Shown in pieces: positions 2,019 to 55,671 of a stretch of 56,724 nt of DNA. Position 1 is the first letter of the stretch. Each line of letters opens with the position of its first letter. The notes below the pieces were generated by a model. That model ran no database searches. It had not been told where the DNA came from and saw only the letters and a list, made by a program, of their open reading frames with translations. The translations under genes and the position numbers were made by a program. The DNA is from an uncultured Clostridia bacterium (GTDB taxonomy: Bacteria > Bacillota > Clostridia > UBA1381), in assembly GCA_944390955.1 (NCBI GenBank), contig CALXRY010000228.1, positions 1 to 56,724 on the forward strand, in the 5' to 3' direction.

Positions 2019-2499
2019 ATGAAAAGCCTCCTTCCGTGATAATATCCTTAAGCTTCTGCCTGCCTCTTGCAAGACGCGATAAGACAGCCGACGTGCTTAT
2101 TCCGGTCATTTCCGATATTTCCCGCGCCTTATAGCCGTGGTAGTAGTGAAGATATATTATCATCCTGTACTTGGGCGGAAGCGCCAGGACCTCCTCCATT
2201 ATCGAGACCTCCTCGGGGCAGGTCATATACTTCAGAACGTCCTCGTCGCTGACTACGTTTTTTGACCAGAAGGACTTATGCATATTTTTGCATATGTTTA
2301 CTGCGGTCTTCATAAGCCACGCCTTTTCATGACCTTCGTTTTCAAATTCCGGTCTTGCCTCCATCAGCCTTATAAACGATTCCGACACGGCCTCCTCAGC
2401 GTCGTATTTGTTTTTCATATATATCAGGCACAGCCTGTACAGATCGTCGGCATTCCTCTCGTAAACGGCCGAAAAGTATTCCGAATCTTCCTTTGTCAC
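2011..2499 (-). CDS. ECF-type RNA polymerase sigma factor
   Basis: A 162-residue extracytoplasmic-function sigma factor. Region 2 is seen in the first 80 residues (DDLYRLCLIYMKNKYDAEEAVSESF, then KAWLMKTAVNICKN), and region 4 in the last 60 (YRMIIYLHYYHGYKAREISEMTG, then STSAVLSRLARGRQKL, a helix-turn-helix for the -35 element). The start is GTG at 2499, preceded by AAAGGAG with 8 bases spacing. It is followed without a gap by the DUF4179-type anti-sigma gene, the usual arrangement for a sigma factor released by an envelope signal. A perfect 14-base palindrome lies 41 bases upstream. Its target promoters cannot be named from this window. Confidence 0.9.
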   Translation of the reverse strand: MTKEDSEYFSAVYERNADDLYRLCLIYMKNKYDAEEAVSESFIRLMEARPEFENEGHEKAWLMKTAVNICKNMHKSFWSKNVVSDEDVLKYMTCPEEVSIMEEVLALPPKYRMIIYLHYYHGYKAREISEMTGISTSAVLSRLARGRQKLKDIITEGGFSYV

Positions 2500-2539
2500 T
2501 CAAAACAGCTCCTTTCCGTTTGAGAGCGCTCACTATAGA

Positions 2540-2553
2540 GTATTTGCAAATAC
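2540..2553. promoter_or_regulatory. Perfect palindrome upstream of the sigma gene
   Basis: GTATTTGCAAATAC reads identically on both strands and lies 41 bases ahead of the sigma factor start, in an AT-rich region that should contain its promoter. It could be an operator for a dimeric regulator. No clean -35/-10 pair could be assigned around it. Confidence 0.35.
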
Positions 2554-2666
2554 ATATATAATACAATTCAGAAAGGTGTATTATTGCATAATGGATAAGA
2601 TTTTTTATATGAAACACATTTAATTTTTTTCGCAGAGCGAAACTACTTTGCTCCGAGTCATAACAT

Positions 2667-2950
2667 GCGCGGGGCTCCGCCCCATTTTAGCCTTAGCTCA
2701 TACCTATGTTCACTGTACCCCGCCAAAGGGTATCCTCGCCGATACCCTTTGGAATCCCGGGCGCAAGCTTTTAAAAGCTTGGCAAATCACAGCTCAAACA
2801 CCCGCCATACCGTCCGCGTCCTTCGCAAGTTTAAGGTTATCTCAAACCGGCGCGAACGGGTGACCTGACGGTGCTTCGCACACGCTACTACTCACTATAG
2901 GAAACTTTTGCTCTGTAAAAGTGATCTTATTCGAGGGAGCCCCTCGAGCT
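2667..2950. repeat. Structured intergenic repeat, copy A
   Basis: Shares order and sequence with copy B at 27853-28088. Common parts are a GC-rich block ending GCTCCGCCCC; a 12-bp hairpin (2723-2752, arms CCAAAGGGTATC / GATACCCTTTGG); a second hairpin (2765-2780, AAGCTTTT / AAAAGCTT); a 75-base core (2789-2863) that matches copy B without gaps at about 65 positions; and a last hairpin (2904-2922, ACTTTTGC-TCT-GTAAAAGT). Copy A has about 30 extra bases (2684-2716) after the first block. No open frame is conserved between copies. It lies between the glmU terminator and the sigma gene. Function unknown. Confidence 0.8.
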
Positions 2951-2994
2951 TCCGTGCGGCTCTGCTCCGTGCTTTTCGCTTTAAATACCACAAC

Positions 2995-3041
2995 AAAAAG
3001 CTGTGAATACCATCCAGTCGGGACAGCATCCACAGCTTTTT
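2995..3041 (-). terminator. Terminator of the rimP-glmU operon
   Basis: AAAAAGCTGTG (2995-3005) pairs with CACAGCTTTTT (3031-3041) around a 25-base loop; on the minus strand the stem ends in a T tract. It lies 30 bases past the glmU stop. Confidence 0.75.
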
Positions 3042-3071
3042 GTAATTTTTATCGCTATACGGCATATATTA

Positions 3072-4442
3072 TTATTTTCTTCTCTTTGCCAGCCATTCGT
3101 CGGAAACGTGCTTGTTTACCTGTCTCGCTCTTGCGATAGAGAGGTAATTTTCCGGAATGTCCTCCGTTATCGTAGAGCCGGCGGCGATATAAGCGCCGTC
3201 GCCGATATTCACAGGCGACACAAGGTTCGTATTGCAGCCGATAAATGCATGATCGCCTATCGTGGAGCGGTATTTCTTCTTTCCATCATAATTCACGGTC
3301 ACCGTTCCGCAGCCGAAATTAACGCCCTTCCCGACGTCCGTATCTCCTATATACGTGAGATGCGATATCTTTGTATCGTCGTCTATCGTAGAGTTCTTCA
3401 GCTCCACAAAATCCCCGACCTTAACATCCTTTCCGACACGGCAGTTGGGTCTTATATATGCAAACGGTCCGACGTGTGTATCACTGTCGACCTCAGACTC
3501 GAGTATCACCGAGCTGAGTATATCCACGTTGTCATGGATCACAGCTCTGTCAAGCACCGAGCCCGTTCCGACCACGCAGCCCTTCCCTATCCTTGTTCCG
3601 CTTTTAAGCGTTACGTTAGGGCATATCTCGGTATCACTGCCAATCTCCACACCGTCCTCAATATAGATGCTGTCGGGTATACGCATAGTAACGCCGTTTT
3701 TCATGTGGTATTCGTTTATCCTGCGGCGCATTATCGCCTCAGCCTCGCTGAGTTGGACCCTGTCGTTTATGCCGCGTATCTCATCGCTGTCACCTATGAT
3801 ATAAGCGCCGACCTTTTTTCCGGCGGCAAGGAGTATCTCAAGCGTATCGGTCAGGTAATACTCGCCCTGCGCATTGTTCGGCTTGAGCTCGCCGAGCGCA
3901 TATAAAAGCGACTCCGCATCGAAAACATACATTCCGGAGTTGACCTCCTTAATAAGCTTTTCCTCATCGTTCGCGTCCTTCTGCTCAACTATCTTCATAA
4001 CGCTTCCGCTGCTGTCTCTCACGATCCTGCCGTAGCCCGATGCATCCGGCAGAACGGCCGTCAGCACCGTCGCGTGATTTCCATTCTCCTTATGATATTC
4101 GACTGCGCTCCTTATCGTTTCCGCTGTTATGAGCGGCGTATCGCCGTTCAATACAACAACATAGCCGCCGGCATTCTTTATGTATTCTCCGGCCTGCATA
4201 ACGGCATGTCCCGTGCCCTTCTGCTCCGCCTGAACGGCATAGCCACACGCATCGCCAAGCTCATCCTTGACAAGTTCCGCCTTGTGTCCTACAACGGCTG
4301 CGACCGTATCCGCGCCCGCCTTTTTCGATTCGTCTATGACCCATCTGCAGAGCGGCTTGCCGCATACGCGGTGCAGCACCTTCGGAATCTCCGACTTCAT
4401 TCTTGTGCCCATTCCGGCAGCCAGAATAATACTTGTAAACAT
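3072..4442 (-). CDS. glmU: Bifunctional UDP-GlcNAc pyrophosphorylase / GlcN-1-P acetyltransferase GlmU
   Basis: Makes UDP-N-acetylglucosamine for peptidoglycan and wall polymers: acetylation of glucosamine-1-phosphate, then uridylyl transfer. At 456 residues it has the normal family length. The N-terminal uridylyltransferase shows LAAGMGTRMKS (7-17), EQKGTGHA (73-80), NGDTP (99-103) and QGEYYLTD (192-199). From about residue 255 a left-handed beta-helix of hexapeptide repeats follows, with the acetyltransferase signatures AYIRPNCRVG, GCGTVTVNYDGKKK and HAFIGCNTNLV. The ATG at 4442 follows GGGGAGG. It is the last gene of the translation-factor operon, 22 bases after ribF, and is followed by a terminator. 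Coupling glmU to nusA/infB rather than to prs or spoVG, its neighbours in Bacillus, is a less common order. Confidence 0.97.
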   Translation of the reverse strand: MFTSIILAAGMGTRMKSEIPKVLHRVCGKPLCRWVIDESKKAGADTVAAVVGHKAELVKDELGDACGYAVQAEQKGTGHAVMQAGEYIKNAGGYVVVLNGDTPLITAETIRSAVEYHKENGNHATVLTAVLPDASGYGRIVRDSSGSVMKIVEQKDANDEEKLIKEVNSGMYVFDAESLLYALGELKPNNAQGEYYLTDTLEILLAAGKKVGAYIIGDSDEIRGINDRVQLSEAEAIMRRRINEYHMKNGVTMRIPDSIYIEDGVEIGSDTEICPNVTLKSGTRIGKGCVVGTGSVLDRAVIHDNVDILSSVILESEVDSDTHVGPFAYIRPNCRVGKDVKVGDFVELKNSTIDDDTKISHLTYIGDTDVGKGVNFGCGTVTVNYDGKKKYRSTIGDHAFIGCNTNLVSPVNIGDGAYIAAGSTITEDIPENYLSIARARQVNKHVSDEWLAKRRK

Positions 4443-4464
4443 AATTCTACCTCCCCGATACGAA

Positions 4465-5358
4465 TTACAGATCCATCGTTCTCACTTGTTTTATATCTTT
4501 TTCTATCTGAGCCTTAAGCTCATCTATGCCGTTGAATTTTATATCGTCCCTGAGCCTCAGTGCAAAAGAGACGCGTATATACTTTCCATATATGTCCTCG
4601 TTAAAATCAAGGATATGGCTCTCTATGGTTATCCTGTCGGCATTAAAAGTCGGATTATTCCCGACATTTATCACACACTTGAGCCGTTTCCCATCAACGT
4701 ATGTTATCCCCGCATATACCCCGTTTTTCGGCAGAGCCATCTTCGAATCGTAATTTACATTGGCGGTCGGAATACCCATTTTTGTGCCGTTCCTCAGACC
4801 GTTCAGAACTATGCCCTCAACGCAGAATCGCCTGCCGAGGAACCTGTTTGCCTCTTCAATGCTTCCAGCTTCTATGAGCTGCCGTATATACGTCGACGAA
4901 ATTATCTTCCCGTCCATGCTCATTGCGCCGGTAACGAGGACCTCAAAGCCGTATTCAGCGCCGAATTTTCTGAGCAGCTCAACGTCGCCCCCGGCCTTGT
5001 ATCCGAAGCTGTAGTCATAACCGACGCACACAGCCCTTATGTCCAAAGTTTTTATGAGCAGCCCGATAAATGCTCTCGGCGAAAGCCTCATAAAGTCCTT
5101 TGTGAATTTTCTCAGATAAACAAAATCCGGCTTTTCACGCTCGAGAAGCTCAAGCTTTGCTTCATTGGGAGTTATCAGCCGCGCTCCCTTCGTATTTTCC
5201 TCAAACAGCAGTATCCCGCTTTTAAGACCTCTGTCACGCGCATAATTTATGCCATTGCGGATTATTGTCATATGCGCTATATGCAGCCCGTCAAAATCGC
5301 CGAGTGCAACGACGCTCCCGCCGCTGACAAAGCCTTCTCCGGCATGAATGACTTCCAT
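4465..5358 (-). CDS. ribF: Bifunctional riboflavin kinase / FAD synthetase RibF
   Basis: Phosphorylates riboflavin to FMN and adenylylates FMN to FAD. The N-terminal FMN adenylyltransferase (about 1-180) carries GDFDGLHIAHM, the nucleotidyltransferase HxxH-like site, and SSTYIRQLIEAG. The C-terminal riboflavin kinase (about 180-297) carries GLRNGTKMGIPTANV, GVYAGITYV and IESHILDFNEDIYG. I take the ATG at 5358, because GGGGG stands 10 bases ahead of it; the GTG at 5367 is too close to that site. That gives 297 residues, normal for the family. It follows truB by 37 bases, the usual truB-ribF order in Firmicutes. Confidence 0.95.
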   Translation of the reverse strand: MEVIHAGEGFVSGGSVVALGDFDGLHIAHMTIIRNGINYARDRGLKSGILLFEENTKGARLITPNEAKLELLEREKPDFVYLRKFTKDFMRLSPRAFIGLLIKTLDIRAVCVGYDYSFGYKAGGDVELLRKFGAEYGFEVLVTGAMSMDGKIISSTYIRQLIEAGSIEEANRFLGRRFCVEGIVLNGLRNGTKMGIPTANVNYDSKMALPKNGVYAGITYVDGKRLKCVINVGNNPTFNADRITIESHILDFNEDIYGKYIRVSFALRLRDDIKFNGIDELKAQIEKDIKQVRTMDL

Positions 5359-5395
5359 TTTTGCCACACCCCCTTTGCAGAATTCCCGTCTCCGC

Positions 5396-6307
5396 TTATT
5401 TTGAGTGTCTTTCCGTTGTCCAGAACGACTGTACCATCACAAGCCGCTTGCTCCTGCATTCAGAAATGCACAGAAAATGATGATTTGGCGAATAGAGCCT
5501 GTAACGCAGTCCCTCCACGCCGTCCGGCCATGTTATCGGGCAGCCGTTGCGCACGCTTGCCGTCTGCTTCATATTAAGATAAAGCTTCGGATATCCCACA
5601 AAGAGATTTTCTACATTTATGAGCTTTGCCTGAAGCTTACGCTCCTTTTGGAGCTCGCGCGCCTCCTGCATAGTACAAGCTTGATCGAGTGTAAAGTTGT
5701 AGGATTTGACCCTTTCGAGCCTGTTCATATACGCCCCTACCTTAAGCTTCTTTCCTATATCGTCGCACAGGGTTCTTATGTATGTCCCCTTTGAGCATTC
5801 AACCTCAATATTTACTATATGGTTTTCCATATCGACATTAAGCACGGAAATTGCGGAGATCTTTATTTTCCTTGGTTTTCTTTCTACCTCAACACCCTTG
5901 CGGGCAAGCTCATAGAGTTTCTTTCCACCCTGCTTTATTGCCGAATACATCGGCGGTATCTGTTCCTGCTCACCAAGAAAGCTCAGTATCGTATCTATTA
6001 TCTCTTTTTCAGTACAGGTCACGGCACACTCAGTAAGCACCTCTCCCTCGCAGTCGTAGGTATCTGTCGTCATTCCGAGGACTATCTCGGCCCTGTATAC
6101 TTTGTCTGCGTCCTGAAGCATACCGGTAACTTTTGTAGCCGCTCCGATGCATATCGGAAGTACGCCGGTTGCTATCGGGTCGAGCGTTCCGGCGTGACCT
6201 ACCTTTGTAAGTCCCGTAATACGGCGTATATAATTTACAACATCGTGCGAGGTCAATCCCACAGGCTTGTTTATTATCAGTATTCCGTTCAGATTAGATA
6301 CCCGCAT
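5396..6307 (-). CDS. truB: tRNA pseudouridine-55 synthase TruB
   Basis: Converts U55 of the T-loop of tRNAs to pseudouridine. The 303-residue protein shows the family start (LNGILIINKPVGLTSHDVV), the catalytic aspartate motif GHAGTLDPIATGVLP, and YMNRLERVKSYNF; a short PUA-like C-terminal part follows (YRLYSPNHHFLCISE). The ATG at 6307 lies 19 bases inside the end of nrnA, with GGAGG 13 bases ahead, so translation is probably coupled to the gene before it. No other start preserves the N-terminus. Confidence 0.96.
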   Translation of the reverse strand: MRVSNLNGILIINKPVGLTSHDVVNYIRRITGLTKVGHAGTLDPIATGVLPICIGAATKVTGMLQDADKVYRAEIVLGMTTDTYDCEGEVLTECAVTCTEKEIIDTILSFLGEQEQIPPMYSAIKQGGKKLYELARKGVEVERKPRKIKISAISVLNVDMENHIVNIEVECSKGTYIRTLCDDIGKKLKVGAYMNRLERVKSYNFTLDQACTMQEARELQKERKLQAKLINVENLFVGYPKLYLNMKQTASVRNGCPITWPDGVEGLRYRLYSPNHHFLCISECRSKRLVMVQSFWTTERHSK

Positions 6308-51771: not shown

Positions 51772-53064
51772 CTATTCTGCCTCTTCAGCCGCCTCAAGGC
51801 ATACGCTGAAAAGCTCGTCGCTGCAATTAAAAGCTATCTCCATATTCTTCTTTTTCGCTATCACGCGGCTCACATAATACAGCCCCAAGCCGCTCTGGTT
51901 CTTTGTCGAATAATCCTTGCTCATGATGCGGCTCATATCCGGCTTGCTGCCGAAGCTGTTAGCTATAAGTAATCTCTGCCGTTCTCTGTCATCCTCAAGC
52001 TCCAGCGCCGCGTACTTTTCCTCAGATTCCTCTGCGGATTCTATGGCGTTATCAAGCAGAGCCCCAACAGCATTCAGTACATTCATGCTCTCAAATGCAC
52101 CGAAGCGTTCTCCGGATATTTTAAGCTCAAACGAAATTCCACGCCGCCGAGCCTCTAAAACCTTAAGCATGATAAGATTCCGCAGGCCTGCGTCGCTTAT
52201 ATTAAGTGCTTTGCCGAGCTGGCCGCTGCTGTATATATCGTCCATTTCGTTGTACAGTTCGTTTATCCGTTCGGCAAGCTTGTCATAATCGCCGTCATCG
52301 CAGTAGCCCTTTATCGCTATTATCGTATTCCTGTAATTATGGCGGAATACCCTTGTCCCGTCATGCATCTCCTCCAATATCCTCTGCTGTTCTGTTATGA
52401 TCTTGTTCTTGCGCTCCACGCTTGCACTCTTTATAAAGCCCATAGCAGCTATGGCAGCAGCAAGATACGTGACCGCCGTTATTGCCAGAAAAAGTCCATA
52501 GGTTTTCGGATTCATGTCCTCGCCTTTCAACAGGCTGTACTCAAACTCAAGCTGAATATACGTCGCAAGGAATATCACAGTTGCCGCCAGGATTGTCAGC
52601 ATTAGCGTTTCCCTTTCCTGCTTATCGGAATTCACAGCTTTTATAAGCTTCTTTTTTATTATGTATGCAACAAACGTAAATACTTGAATACTTATCGTGT
52701 TGATGATAAAGCAGGTTATCGGCGTATAATCAAAAATTGTATAGAGCAACACGATGTCTACGGCTTCCGCCGCCGACACTATCACTATATATACGCTGAA
52801 AATCATCACTGCCTTTTGCAGATTCCGTATGTTGATACATATCAGCATAAATATGTATGCCGTAATGACTGAGATTCGCTGCGCAACGTATCTGTCGTCG
52901 AGCAACATGAACATAATGGTAAACAGGAAGGTGATACTCAAAATATAAAACGCAGTCTTAGGCACGGAAAGCCTTACGGAAAAGATATACACGAGAATAA
53001 GCACCAAACTTACCGACCATGACATTCCCACAAGCGCAGACGAAACAGTATATGTGACATCCAT
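51772..53064 (-). CDS. GHKL-type sensor histidine kinase (AgrC/CitA-like)
   Basis: 430 residues. Six membrane helices in the first 200 residues, then a linker coiled coil (KNKIITEQQRILEEMHDG), the H-box FRHNYRNTIIAIKGYCDDG, and a GHKL ATPase with VGALLDNAIESAEESEEKYA and NQSGLGLYYVSRVIAKKKN. This class pairs with LytTR regulators, as for the AgrC receptor of cyclic peptides. No AgrB-like protease or AgrD-like peptide gene is visible. It starts at ATG 53064, 4 bases after the regulator ends, with GAGG ahead. Its signal is therefore unknown. Confidence 0.92.
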   Translation of the reverse strand: MDVTYTVSSALVGMSWSVSLVLILVYIFSVRLSVPKTAFYILSITFLFTIMFMLLDDRYVAQRISVITAYIFMLICINIRNLQKAVMIFSVYIVIVSAAEAVDIVLLYTIFDYTPITCFIINTISIQVFTFVAYIIKKKLIKAVNSDKQERETLMLTILAATVIFLATYIQLEFEYSLLKGEDMNPKTYGLFLAITAVTYLAAAIAAMGFIKSASVERKNKIITEQQRILEEMHDGTRVFRHNYRNTIIAIKGYCDDGDYDKLAERINELYNEMDDIYSSGQLGKALNISDAGLRNLIMLKVLEARRRGISFELKISGERFGAFESMNVLNAVGALLDNAIESAEESEEKYAALELEDDRERQRLLIANSFGSKPDMSRIMSKDYSTKNQSGLGLYYVSRVIAKKKNMEIAFNCSDELFSVCLEAAEEAE

Positions 53065-53068
53065 CTTA

Positions 53069-53773
53069 TCACCTCTTGCTAAGGCTGCCGAGTATATCAC
53101 GATACAGCCGAGCCTTATCTCTTGAGCAATATATCGCGGTATTGTTCTCCATGTATATCAGCCGCCGTTCCGAATCATACGACTGTGCACGATTAATATT
53201 TACTGCCGTTCCTTTATCTACAACAAGAAAGTTCTCATCAAGCATAGATACGATTGCCGAAATCGACTGTCTCACCTGAAAGAAAGCATTTTTAGTATAT
53301 ACCGAGGTCTTTCTGTCATCCCTGCGGAGATACAGTATATCATCAATGGCAACATCGAAATACTTAGCTCCGCTTTTCAGATTTATATTCTTGTTTTTTG
53401 AATTACTCAAATACCGCAGAAATTCATACAGCTTTTCCTTCTCAAATCCGCAAAGCGGTTTTATCAGAAATTCCGAAGGACGTATCAGCCCCGTAAGCGT
53501 CTCGCGCAGCTTATCGTTATATGAAGTCACAAAAACTATATGAGCTCGTTCTCTTATGCTGCGTATCCTGCGTGCAAGCCTTATTCCCGCATTCTCGTCC
53601 TTGCCGTCTGCAATGTCAAGAAAAAAGACATCGTTATCATCTACATCCACCGTTACAAGCTCGTTAAAGCTGTGCCGCTCTATTTCGACATCCTGCCAAC
53701 CCGGCGCACTACGAATCAGGCTCTCGACCTCCTCACGAAAATATCTATCGTCGTCAACAATAACAAATCTCAT
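53069..53773 (-). CDS. LytTR-family response regulator (AgrA-like)
   Basis: 234 residues. Receiver domain (about 1-125) with VIVDDDRYFREE (4-15), phosphorylated Asp in VFFLDIADGKDE (D53) and FLIKPLCG with the conserved Lys. The C-terminal LytTR DNA-binding domain (about 130-232) has YFDVAIDDILYLRRDD, FFQVRQSISAIVSMLDENF and VNINRAQSYDSERRLIYMEN. ATG 53773 follows GAGGG at 6 bases. The region ahead carries two good promoters and twin 13-base repeats placed just upstream of the nearer one. Confidence 0.92.
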   Translation of the reverse strand: MRFVIVDDDRYFREEVESLIRSAPGWQDVEIERHSFNELVTVDVDDNDVFFLDIADGKDENAGIRLARRIRSIRERAHIVFVTSYNDKLRETLTGLIRPSEFLIKPLCGFEKEKLYEFLRYLSNSKNKNINLKSGAKYFDVAIDDILYLRRDDRKTSVYTKNAFFQVRQSISAIVSMLDENFLVVDKGTAVNINRAQSYDSERRLIYMENNTAIYCSRDKARLYRDILGSLSKR

Positions 53774-53797
53774 TTTCAACCCTCATTTAATAAATTA

Positions 53798-53826
53798 ATT
53801 ATAACAAATCATGCGTAATTATTCAA
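53798..53826 (-). promoter_or_regulatory. Proximal promoter (P2) of the LytTR operon
   Basis: TTGAAT (53826-53821), 17-base spacer, TATAAT (53803-53798), minus strand; start about 20 bases upstream of the ATG. The twin repeats end 8 bases before its -35. Confidence 0.75.
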
Positions 53827-53834
53827 TCGTTTTT

Positions 53835-53867
53835 GCATAATCCGTAATTTTTGTGCATAATCCGTAA
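53835..53867. repeat. Twin 13-base direct repeats, probable LytTR binding site
   Basis: GCATAATCCGTAA at 53835-53847 and again at 53855-53867, identical, start to start 20 bases. On the minus strand they read TTACGGATTATGC. Direct repeats with about two helical turns of spacing just upstream of a -35 box are the form used by LytTR regulators. Confidence 0.65.
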
Positions 53868-53870
53868 ATA

Positions 53871-53899
53871 ATTATAGCATATACAACAGAAAAATGCAA
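53871..53899 (-). promoter_or_regulatory. Distal promoter (P1) of the LytTR operon
   Basis: TTGCAT (53899-53894), 17-base spacer, TATAAT (53876-53871). The twin repeats lie directly downstream of its -10, so a bound regulator would block this promoter. Confidence 0.7.
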
Positions 53900-53978: not shown

Positions 53979-54016
53979 AAAAGGTCATGTACCACTTAAG
54001 AGAACATGACCTTTTT
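53979..54016 (-). terminator. Terminator after the secreted repeat protein gene
   Basis: AAGGTCATGT (53981-53990) pairs with ACATGACCTT (54004-54013) around a 13-base loop, with T tracts on both strands; about 55 bases past the stop codon of the minus-strand gene. Confidence 0.7.
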
Positions 54017-54069: not shown

Positions 54070-55671
54070 TTATACCTGTCCTGAGCCTCCGCAGCTGTCG
54101 CACACTCTCCAGCCGGCACTGCCGCAATAGGTGCATCCCTGGGGCGTTTCGATACCCACTATATTCATCGGCAGTCCCTGACCGGTGCCGCCGCAGAAAT
54201 TGCACGTCACACGGCCTGTACCGCCGCAGACGCTGCAGGCGGAGGTCTGCGTTTGAGTCTGGGTATTGCTTCCGCTGTTTGACGGCGTTGACGGGCTGGA
54301 AACTGAAGAGTCGGTGATATTTACCGTCTTTGTTGCGCCGTCCCACTCGACCGTACATTGGAACGATTCAGCTATCGCCCTGACCGGAACGAGTGTTCTG
54401 TCGTTAACGACCATAGGAGCAACGTCAAGCTCAATTATTTCAACATTCATCCCATCGGTTATCTTTGTCATATTGTATCCGCCTATCTGCAATCCGATCT
54501 GGATATTATCGCGAACTGCTGAAGCGATAAGCAGTTCACTGTTCCAATCTACTGTCGCACCGAGCGCTTCGAATATGGCTCTCATCGGAACGAGTGTCCT
54601 GTCATTCGTTATTATCGGAGGCTGATCAAAGCTTACACGCGATCCGTTTACATTGACGGTTATCTCATCGCTCTGAGGAGCCGCTGTTGGAGCAGCAGGT
54701 GCCGCTGTTGGAGCAACAGGCGCTGCTGTAGGAGTGCTGGTCGGAGCGGCCGTAGGAGCCTTGGTTGGAGCAGGAGTCGCTGTGGCGGCGGGAAGAGCCT
54801 GACCATTAAAACGCCTGTCGCACTGTAAATATGGATAGCCGTCGTTCTTGCTGCTGTCTATCGCCCAGGTATTTGCAAAATCCCATCCCTCGTATGTCGC
54901 CTGTATCGTGAGTCCCGTGGGAGATTTTCCCGATGCTCCGCCGGAGCGCTTACTTACCGATGAGGTCTCGTCATTGTTATAATAGCAGCTTATCACTGAA
55001 ACAGAACCGCTGTCCTCATCATTATCTCCCACAAACGGGCTGACAAACTTGTCCAGCTTATTTCCATTTGTTGTTGTGCCCTGACAATATATATGACCTG
55101 TGTAAAGGCAGTTTTCTATAACTCCGTTGTTCATGCCGACAAAGCCGCCGACGCTCGAACTCTCATACATACCGCCGACGGTGAGCTGTGTCATTGAGAA
55201 GCAGTTGCTGATAGTTCCGTTGTTTGTGCGTGCGAACGTTCCAGCATTTCCGTTACGCGAATACACCTCGCCGTCTACGATACCGGTATTTTCTATAGTT
55301 CCGTTGTTTGTTGTGATAAACGGAGTGTTTATCTCGTCTATCTCAACGATAAGATTTTCTATCGTTCCCGTATTCGTGCTTATAATCCCCTGACCGTCAA
55401 GACCGCTAACAAGACAGCCGTTGCCGTCTATCGTTCCCGAAAACTGTGCCACAGCTGAAAAGCTGTCTTCAAGCACAATATCCTGTGCCAGTCTAAAATG
55501 CGCATCAGGGAAATCGGCTATAAGACCAAATTCATCCTCATTTGAAACTATATACGGGTCGGACGCCGTTCCGCTGCCGCTCACCGCAGAGGCAGGCAGG
55601 CTGAAAGCACCGCAGGCTCCGACGGACAACGCCGCAGTCAGCAGCAGTGCCGATATTTTTTTCATCTTCAT
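54070..55671 (-). CDS. Secreted protein: beta-helix, stalk domain and CxxCxGxG zinc-finger-like tail
   Basis: 533 residues. Signal peptide (about 1-28, KISALLLTAALSVGACGAFS). Residues about 40-260 hold GLUG-like beta-helix repeats (NNGTIENTGIVDGEV, NNGTISNCFSMTQL, NNGVIENCLYTGHI). A Pro/Ala/Thr linker (about 293-330) leads to a copper-amine-oxidase-N type stalk domain (about 335-445) with two DRTLVPMRAIFEALGA-like halves. After a Ser/Thr/Gln linker the tail (about 465-533) has four CxxCxGxG-like units: CSVCGGTG, CNFCGGTG, CTYCGSAG, CDSCGGSG. That tail is the pattern of the DnaJ zinc finger, unusual on a secreted protein. No SLH or LPxTG anchor is seen. GGGGG precedes ATG 55671 at 9 bases. Function unknown. 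Confidence 0.75.
   Translation of the reverse strand: MKMKKISALLLTAALSVGACGAFSLPASAVSGSGTASDPYIVSNEDEFGLIADFPDAHFRLAQDIVLEDSFSAVAQFSGTIDGNGCLVSGLDGQGIISTNTGTIENLIVEIDEINTPFITTNNGTIENTGIVDGEVYSRNGNAGTFARTNNGTISNCFSMTQLTVGGMYESSSVGGFVGMNNGVIENCLYTGHIYCQGTTTNGNKLDKFVSPFVGDNDEDSGSVSVISCYYNNDETSSVSKRSGGASGKSPTGLTIQATYEGWDFANTWAIDSSKNDGYPYLQCDRRFNGQALPAATATPAPTKAPTAAPTSTPTAAPVAPTAAPAAPTAAPQSDEITVNVNGSRVSFDQPPIITNDRTLVPMRAIFEALGATVDWNSELLIASAVRDNIQIGLQIGGYNMTKITDGMNVEIIELDVAPMVVNDRTLVPVRAIAESFQCTVEWDGATKTVNITDSSVSSPSTPSNSGSNTQTQTQTSACSVCGGTGRVTCNFCGGTGQGLPMNIVGIETPQGCTYCGSAGWRVCDSCGGSGQV

Follow-up and report, generated by a model that had tools for sequence, protein, structure and literature searches.

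A LytTR-type repeat pair between two promoters of its own regulator-kinase operon in gut Clostridia: a candidate self-regulating switch

Why would two identical DNA repeats lie between two promoters that face the same way, directly ahead of the genes for a LytTR-type response regulator and its kinase, and could one operator serve to close the first promoter while opening the second? The arrangement occurs in a 56,724-nucleotide stretch from an uncultured Clostridia bacterium (contig CALXRY010000228.1), the whole of which we call the window. An earlier note on this DNA described a promoter P1, twin 13-base repeats, and a promoter P2, each promoter with an exact 17-base spacer, and proposed that a bound LytTR regulator represses P1 and activates P2. 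On the minus strand the layout and both spacers are borne out, with exact identity between the repeats extending over 14 bases, not 13. The proposed switch holds up in part: its architecture and its tie to the operon's own LytTR regulator are supported (by conservation in five operons, a fixed P2 spacing, and the presence of the repeats with P2, but without P1, elsewhere), and activation of P2 is well supported by analogy, whereas the case for repression of P1 is purely geometric, the predicted start lying inside the first repeat.

RESULTS

Regulator and kinase genes

The operon encodes a response regulator and an overlapping membrane histidine kinase of the AgrC/GHKL kind (Table 1). The C-terminal LytTR domain of the regulator scores 54.8 bits against a cutoff of 22.6 (PF04397), and its putative receiver matches PF00072 at an E value of 8e-06 and 26.4 bits, which is under the cutoff of 30.2; receiver residues D8-D10, D54, T84, and K106 are invariant in all five regulators. 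The kinase matches HATPase_c_5 with 34.5 bits against a cutoff of 22. Pheromone receptors of agr systems have hypervariable sensors; the sensor half of this kinase, unlike those, retains 50 to 85% identity between the window and three orthologues in bins of 40 residues, and its signal may therefore be one that the window and the orthologues share.

Two assignments of the operon were considered and rejected. It is not a LytTR Regulatory System (LRS), since the partner of the regulator is a GHKL histidine kinase and not a membrane inhibitor, and it is not an agr locus, the sole AgrB match of the genome being on another contig (C5); the regulator reaches 34.2 bits against the AgrA equivalog NF046049, for which the curated cutoff is 400. 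The operon is flanked by a LepA-like gene (identified by eye) and by a gene for a Cu_amine_oxidN1 protein (positions 54070 to 55671), which lies just upstream and encodes C-terminal CxxCxGxG-like cysteine motifs, also recognized by eye. A perfect hairpin between this upstream gene and P1 is probably the terminator of that gene.

Table 1. Features of the operon and its promoter region (window coordinates)
Feature	Position	Strand	Remark
Membrane histidine kinase, AgrC/GHKL kind	51772..53100	-	up to 442 aa; overlaps regulator gene
Response regulator, putative receiver and LytTR DNA-binding domain	53069..53773	-	234 aa from conserved ATG at 53773
P2 -10 hexamer TATAAT (TGtTATAAT)	53798..53803	-	31 nt past proximal repeat
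GCATGATTTG element in P2 spacer	53805..53814	-	adjoins -10; resembles inverted half-site
P2 -35 hexamer TTGAAT	53821..53826	-	8 nt past proximal repeat; TTG in register in 9/9 operators
Proximal LytTR-type repeat TTACGGATTATGC	53835..53847	-	
Distal LytTR-type repeat TTACGGATTATGC	53855..53867	-	predicted P1 start (~53864) inside
P1 -10 hexamer TATAAT, extended (TGcTATAAT)	53871..53876	-	
P1 -35 hexamer TTGCAT	53894..53899	-	TTG in register in 5/5 regulator operators, 0/4 others
12-bp perfect hairpin	53979..54015	-	between upstream gene and P1

Two promoters and a repeat pair

The repeats lie 20 bp apart from start to start, and both promoters have 17-nt spacers and a TG ahead of the -10. With the P1 start taken 7 nt past the -10 and the P2 start predicted at ~53791, the repeat pair is centered at about -60 relative to the latter. 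A simple promoter scan of the window lists P2 and not P1, because the -35 of P1 matches at just 3 of 6 positions. Given the 17-nt spacers and good -10 hexamers of both promoters, P2 is perhaps partly active even without the regulator. The operator repeat is unlike the textbook LytTR consensus. Divergence from that consensus is reported elsewhere, in the available part of PMC6193735.

Exact direct repeats of at least 13 nt at 13 to 25 bp are rare by chance: a single shuffle among 100 dinucleotide-preserving shuffles of the window has one, against two in the real window, namely, the operator pair and a coding repeat at 54680. The coding repeat is a 15-nt tandem repeat (54680 to 54715) within the Cu_amine_oxidN1 gene and encodes a Pro/Ala/Thr-rich linker. 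A structured leader RNA was rejected as the cause of the operator repeats, as the predicted folding of the 91-nt P1 leader is no more stable than that of shuffled sequences (z = -0.54), and an Rfam search gave two sub-threshold matches only, both outside the promoter region.

The genome (2.79 Mb, 88.8% complete) contains four exact copies of the 13-mer TTACGGATTATGC, arranged in two pairs with 20-bp spacing. One pair is that of the window, and the other precedes another copy of the regulator-kinase operon on contig C48 (4271 to 6299); this copy lies in a different neighborhood and has the tail of the upstream gene attached. Between the two copies, identity is 87% at the DNA level and 89% for the regulator, and the C48 kinase frame differs near its C terminus (403 aa versus 442), possibly through a frameshift or an assembly error. 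The genome scan for repeat pairs at 20-base spacing that the earlier note had suggested recovered, at up to three mismatches, only the pairs before these two operon copies and one 3-mismatch place on contig C23, which looks coding by eye. In the same genome, neither the agr locus (C5) nor the LytTR genes on C77, C126, and C193 has a repeat pair scoring near the known operators.

Conservation among relatives

At an E value of 1e-30 or better, the regulator is found in 4 of 70 family genomes: that of the window, with two copies, and G002, G082, and G076, whose three orthologues span two genera and are 68%, 59%, and 60% identical to the regulator of the window, respectively. The operon-carrying genomes are incomplete (84 to 89% complete), and their five operons, few in number, are related by descent and thus not independent. 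In an ungapped comparison of the 28 nt ahead of the P1 -35, C48 matches the window at 25 of 28 positions and G002 at 14 of 28; by this comparison, the presence of P1 in C48 and G002 is in part a matter of shared ancestry.

All five regulator operons (window, C48, G002, G082, and G076) carry CGGATTNTGC twice at 20 bp. As a strict pair, CGGATTNTGC-10-CGGATTNTGC occurs at six places in 95 genomes of the order and only in the four genomes where the regulator was detected; with up to two mismatches, these 95 genomes yield 36 places, versus 2 for the reversed pattern. Thirty of those places have one or two mismatches, and the two inspected are both on contig C60 of G082. Set at a 19-bp spacing, the pair pattern is found at two places in 70 genomes, with no known operator among them. 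A class-level scan of 391 genomes for the pair plus TTG, with up to two mismatches, returned five places in four genomes, exact in only two cases, both in the genome of the window. In the genome_contigs collection (described as covering 84,980 species), a search with a peptide pattern recovered three close relatives, the remainder being 12 proteins with at most 40% identity over the best segment, and a single-sequence scan found none.

A looser pattern made up of the proximal half and P2 occurs at 63 places in five genomes. Among the 30 inspected, a convincing distal repeat is present only at seven already known operators, and a place on contig C96 of G002 has a weak one (score of 3.5). This pattern is unspecific on its own, because 22 of the 63 places are in G001, a genome of the same genus without the regulator.

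Register of the promoters across nine operators

Nine operators were compared. Five belong to the regulator operons. G082 contributes three more, of which one precedes a small lipoprotein-like gene that immediately follows the kinase, another agrB, and the third a candidate agrD; the last of the nine precedes an agrB in G076 and has more divergent repeats with a pitch of 21 bp. The lipoprotein-like gene was named by eye, with no model matching it. In every one of the nine, a TTG starts 8 nt past the proximal repeat. An exact TATAAT follows at 31 nt in six (the five regulator operons and one target), the candidate agrD operator has TAAAAT at 31 nt, and the two agrB operators have TACAAT at 32 nt. 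Summed over six operators, the P2 hexamer matches in register number 58 of 72, against 31 for the next best offset.

P1 follows a different distribution. Its pattern (TTG, 17 nt, and a -10-like hexamer that ends 3 nt before the distal repeat) is present at all five regulator operators and at none of the four others. The -10 hexamers in register are TATAAT, TATAGT, TATAAT, TATAAT, and AAGAAT, with a TG ahead in four of the five; P1 of G076 is weak (TTGGGA-17-AAGAAT), with no TG in place. Summed hexamer matches for the five operators reach 44 of 60 in register, the next best offset giving 27. When in-register scores were compared with mononucleotide shuffles of each 60-nt flank (20,000 each), the P1 score was reached by 64, 433, 105, 5, and 219 shuffles at the regulator operators and by 14,616, 5,467, 2,116, and 4,717 at the four others.

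From these registers we infer that the repeats together with P2 form a portable activated module and that P1 is an additional, basal promoter confined to the regulator operon. Because other genes have the module but lack P1, its core function is probably activation, and P1 is probably an add-on that would maintain a basal supply of regulator.

One locus with such operators, on contig C60 of G082 (2375 to 5534), is agr-like, with the order agrB-regulator-kinase followed by a gene for an AgrD-like peptide of 50+ aa, and has a tandem operator of the same kind ahead of both agrB and the peptide gene. The candidate agrD was called by eye from position and sequence, no Pfam or NCBIfam model having matched, and the agr regulator of this genome is only 24% identical to that of the window.

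DISCUSSION

We favor, with somewhat better than even confidence, the reading that this is a self-regulating LytTR two-component operon in which a single operator lies between two promoters, such that P1 acts as the basal promoter and the bound regulator drives P2 and shuts P1. When no signal is present, RNA polymerase would start at P1, helped by its extended -10, and provide basal regulator and kinase. The kinase would then activate the regulator, which would bind both repeats as a dimer, and this dimer, centered ~60 bp upstream of the P2 start, would recruit polymerase to P2, with its weak -35, and so set up positive feedback. The same dimer would cover the predicted start region of P1, shutting this promoter off or blocking its polymerase. 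Binding by the regulator, activation of P2, and repression of P1 are all deductions from the DNA sequence, and repression by occlusion is deduced from geometry only.

If the regulator activated P2 while P1 was unaffected or merely weak, the operon would be positively autoregulated through two additive promoters and there would be no switch. Such a scheme sits well with the recurrence of the repeats and P2 without P1 at other genes, which points to activation as the core function, and with the weak P1 of G076; it sits badly with the geometry, common to all five operons, of a predicted P1 start within the first repeat and a -10 that ends 3 nt short of it, as a polymerase at P1 would need to displace the bound dimer. 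We regard it as unlikely, if deserving of consideration. Negative autoregulation, in which the regulator represses both P1 and P2 and the element in the P2 spacer is a third, inverted half-site, appears very improbable. The element, kept as GCATRATYTG only in the window, C48, and G002, does adjoin the P2 -10 there and scores 5.6, 10.8, and 5.9, respectively, as an inverted half-site, but it is not at the same place in the P2 spacers of G082 or G076, and the register of 8 and 31 nt, kept at other genes, points with LytTR precedent to activation.

It is similarly far-fetched that P1 is no promoter at all and that a conserved AT-rich stretch beside the distal repeat only aids regulator binding or DNA bending. 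The stretch is indeed AT-rich, and binding by AgrA may bend DNA (PMC4227749, in the part available); however, the four operators without P1 hexamers retain their repeats, and what is conserved at the other five is specifically a TTG and a TATAAT-like hexamer separated by precisely 17 nt, the hexamer being preceded by TG in four. Within the favored reading of a basal P1 and an activated P2, a stricter version is conceivable at somewhat less than even confidence: a hard promoter exchange, conserved in two genera from one family of gut Clostridia, in which a basal promoter found only at the regulator operon is occluded by the dimer that starts P2 and, in one genus, an inverted half-site acts as a brake within P2, yielding a bistable or self-limiting loop.

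If the favored reading is true, the operon would be a compact case of a two-component system that keeps itself primed at a basal level and then sustains its own expression through one site. The conserved register of 8 and 31 nt, together with CGGATTNTGC, provides a usable rule with which to search for a LytTR regulon in uncultured gut Clostridia.

Both activating and repressing roles are ascribed to another LytTR regulator, ComE of Streptococcus mutans, which reportedly activates mutacin genes and represses CSP synthesis, at divergent genes and not at promoters arranged in tandem ahead of its own operon. The agr P2 and P3 promoters of Staphylococcus aureus are divergent. There, each promoter has separate sites, whereas here one site serves two promoters of the same direction with 17-nt spacers, and neither agrB nor agrD was recognized beside the operon. 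AgrA resembles the present regulator in being a LytTR response regulator with tandem repeats near -60; according to the available part of PMC4227749, it activates when bound near -60 and represses bsaA when bound immediately downstream of the promoter, and the promoters that it activates have longer, suboptimal spacers (18 and 20 nt at agr P2 and P3). Since AgrA activates from about -60 and represses bsaA, and the gap at S. mutans hdrRM is 8 nt, both halves of the proposed action have LytTR precedent.

The hdrRM and brsRM operons of S. mutans share with this operon the LytTR regulator, the repeat pitch, and the extended -10. As described in the part of PMC6193735 at hand, each has two 9-bp direct repeats with 11 to 13 bp between them (a pitch of ~20 to 22 bp); LytTR repeats in S. 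mutans sit 4 to 11 bp upstream of the -35 and produce positive feedback, and those of hdrRM lie 8 nt upstream of the -35, the same gap as here, and bring about autoactivation through an extended -10 promoter. The partner there is a membrane inhibitor, unlike the GHKL histidine kinase here, whose regulator has a putative receiver, and an upstream promoter overlapped by the repeats, as in the window, is not mentioned for hdrRM or brsRM in that part of the report. Taking repeats 20 to 22 bp apart and 4 to 11 bp from the -35 as a yardstick, all five regulator operons fall within it (20 bp and 8 nt).

The two-promoter layout has a likeness in spo0A of Bacillus subtilis, although Spo0A is not known as a LytTR protein. 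That response regulator gene also has a vegetative and a downstream promoter (Pv and Ps) with the regulator's own 0A boxes between them; unlike the present operon, Ps uses sigma-H and the boxes are mainly repressive, as far as the available part of PMC12090719 goes. In the open-licence literature, covered mostly by title and abstract and so a weak guide, we recognized no LytTR operator flanked by a tandem pair of promoters that both serve its own operon. Every part of the arrangement is already known from other bacteria: its position, spacing, and predicted autoactivation match those of LytTR operons, and its two promoters recall spo0A.
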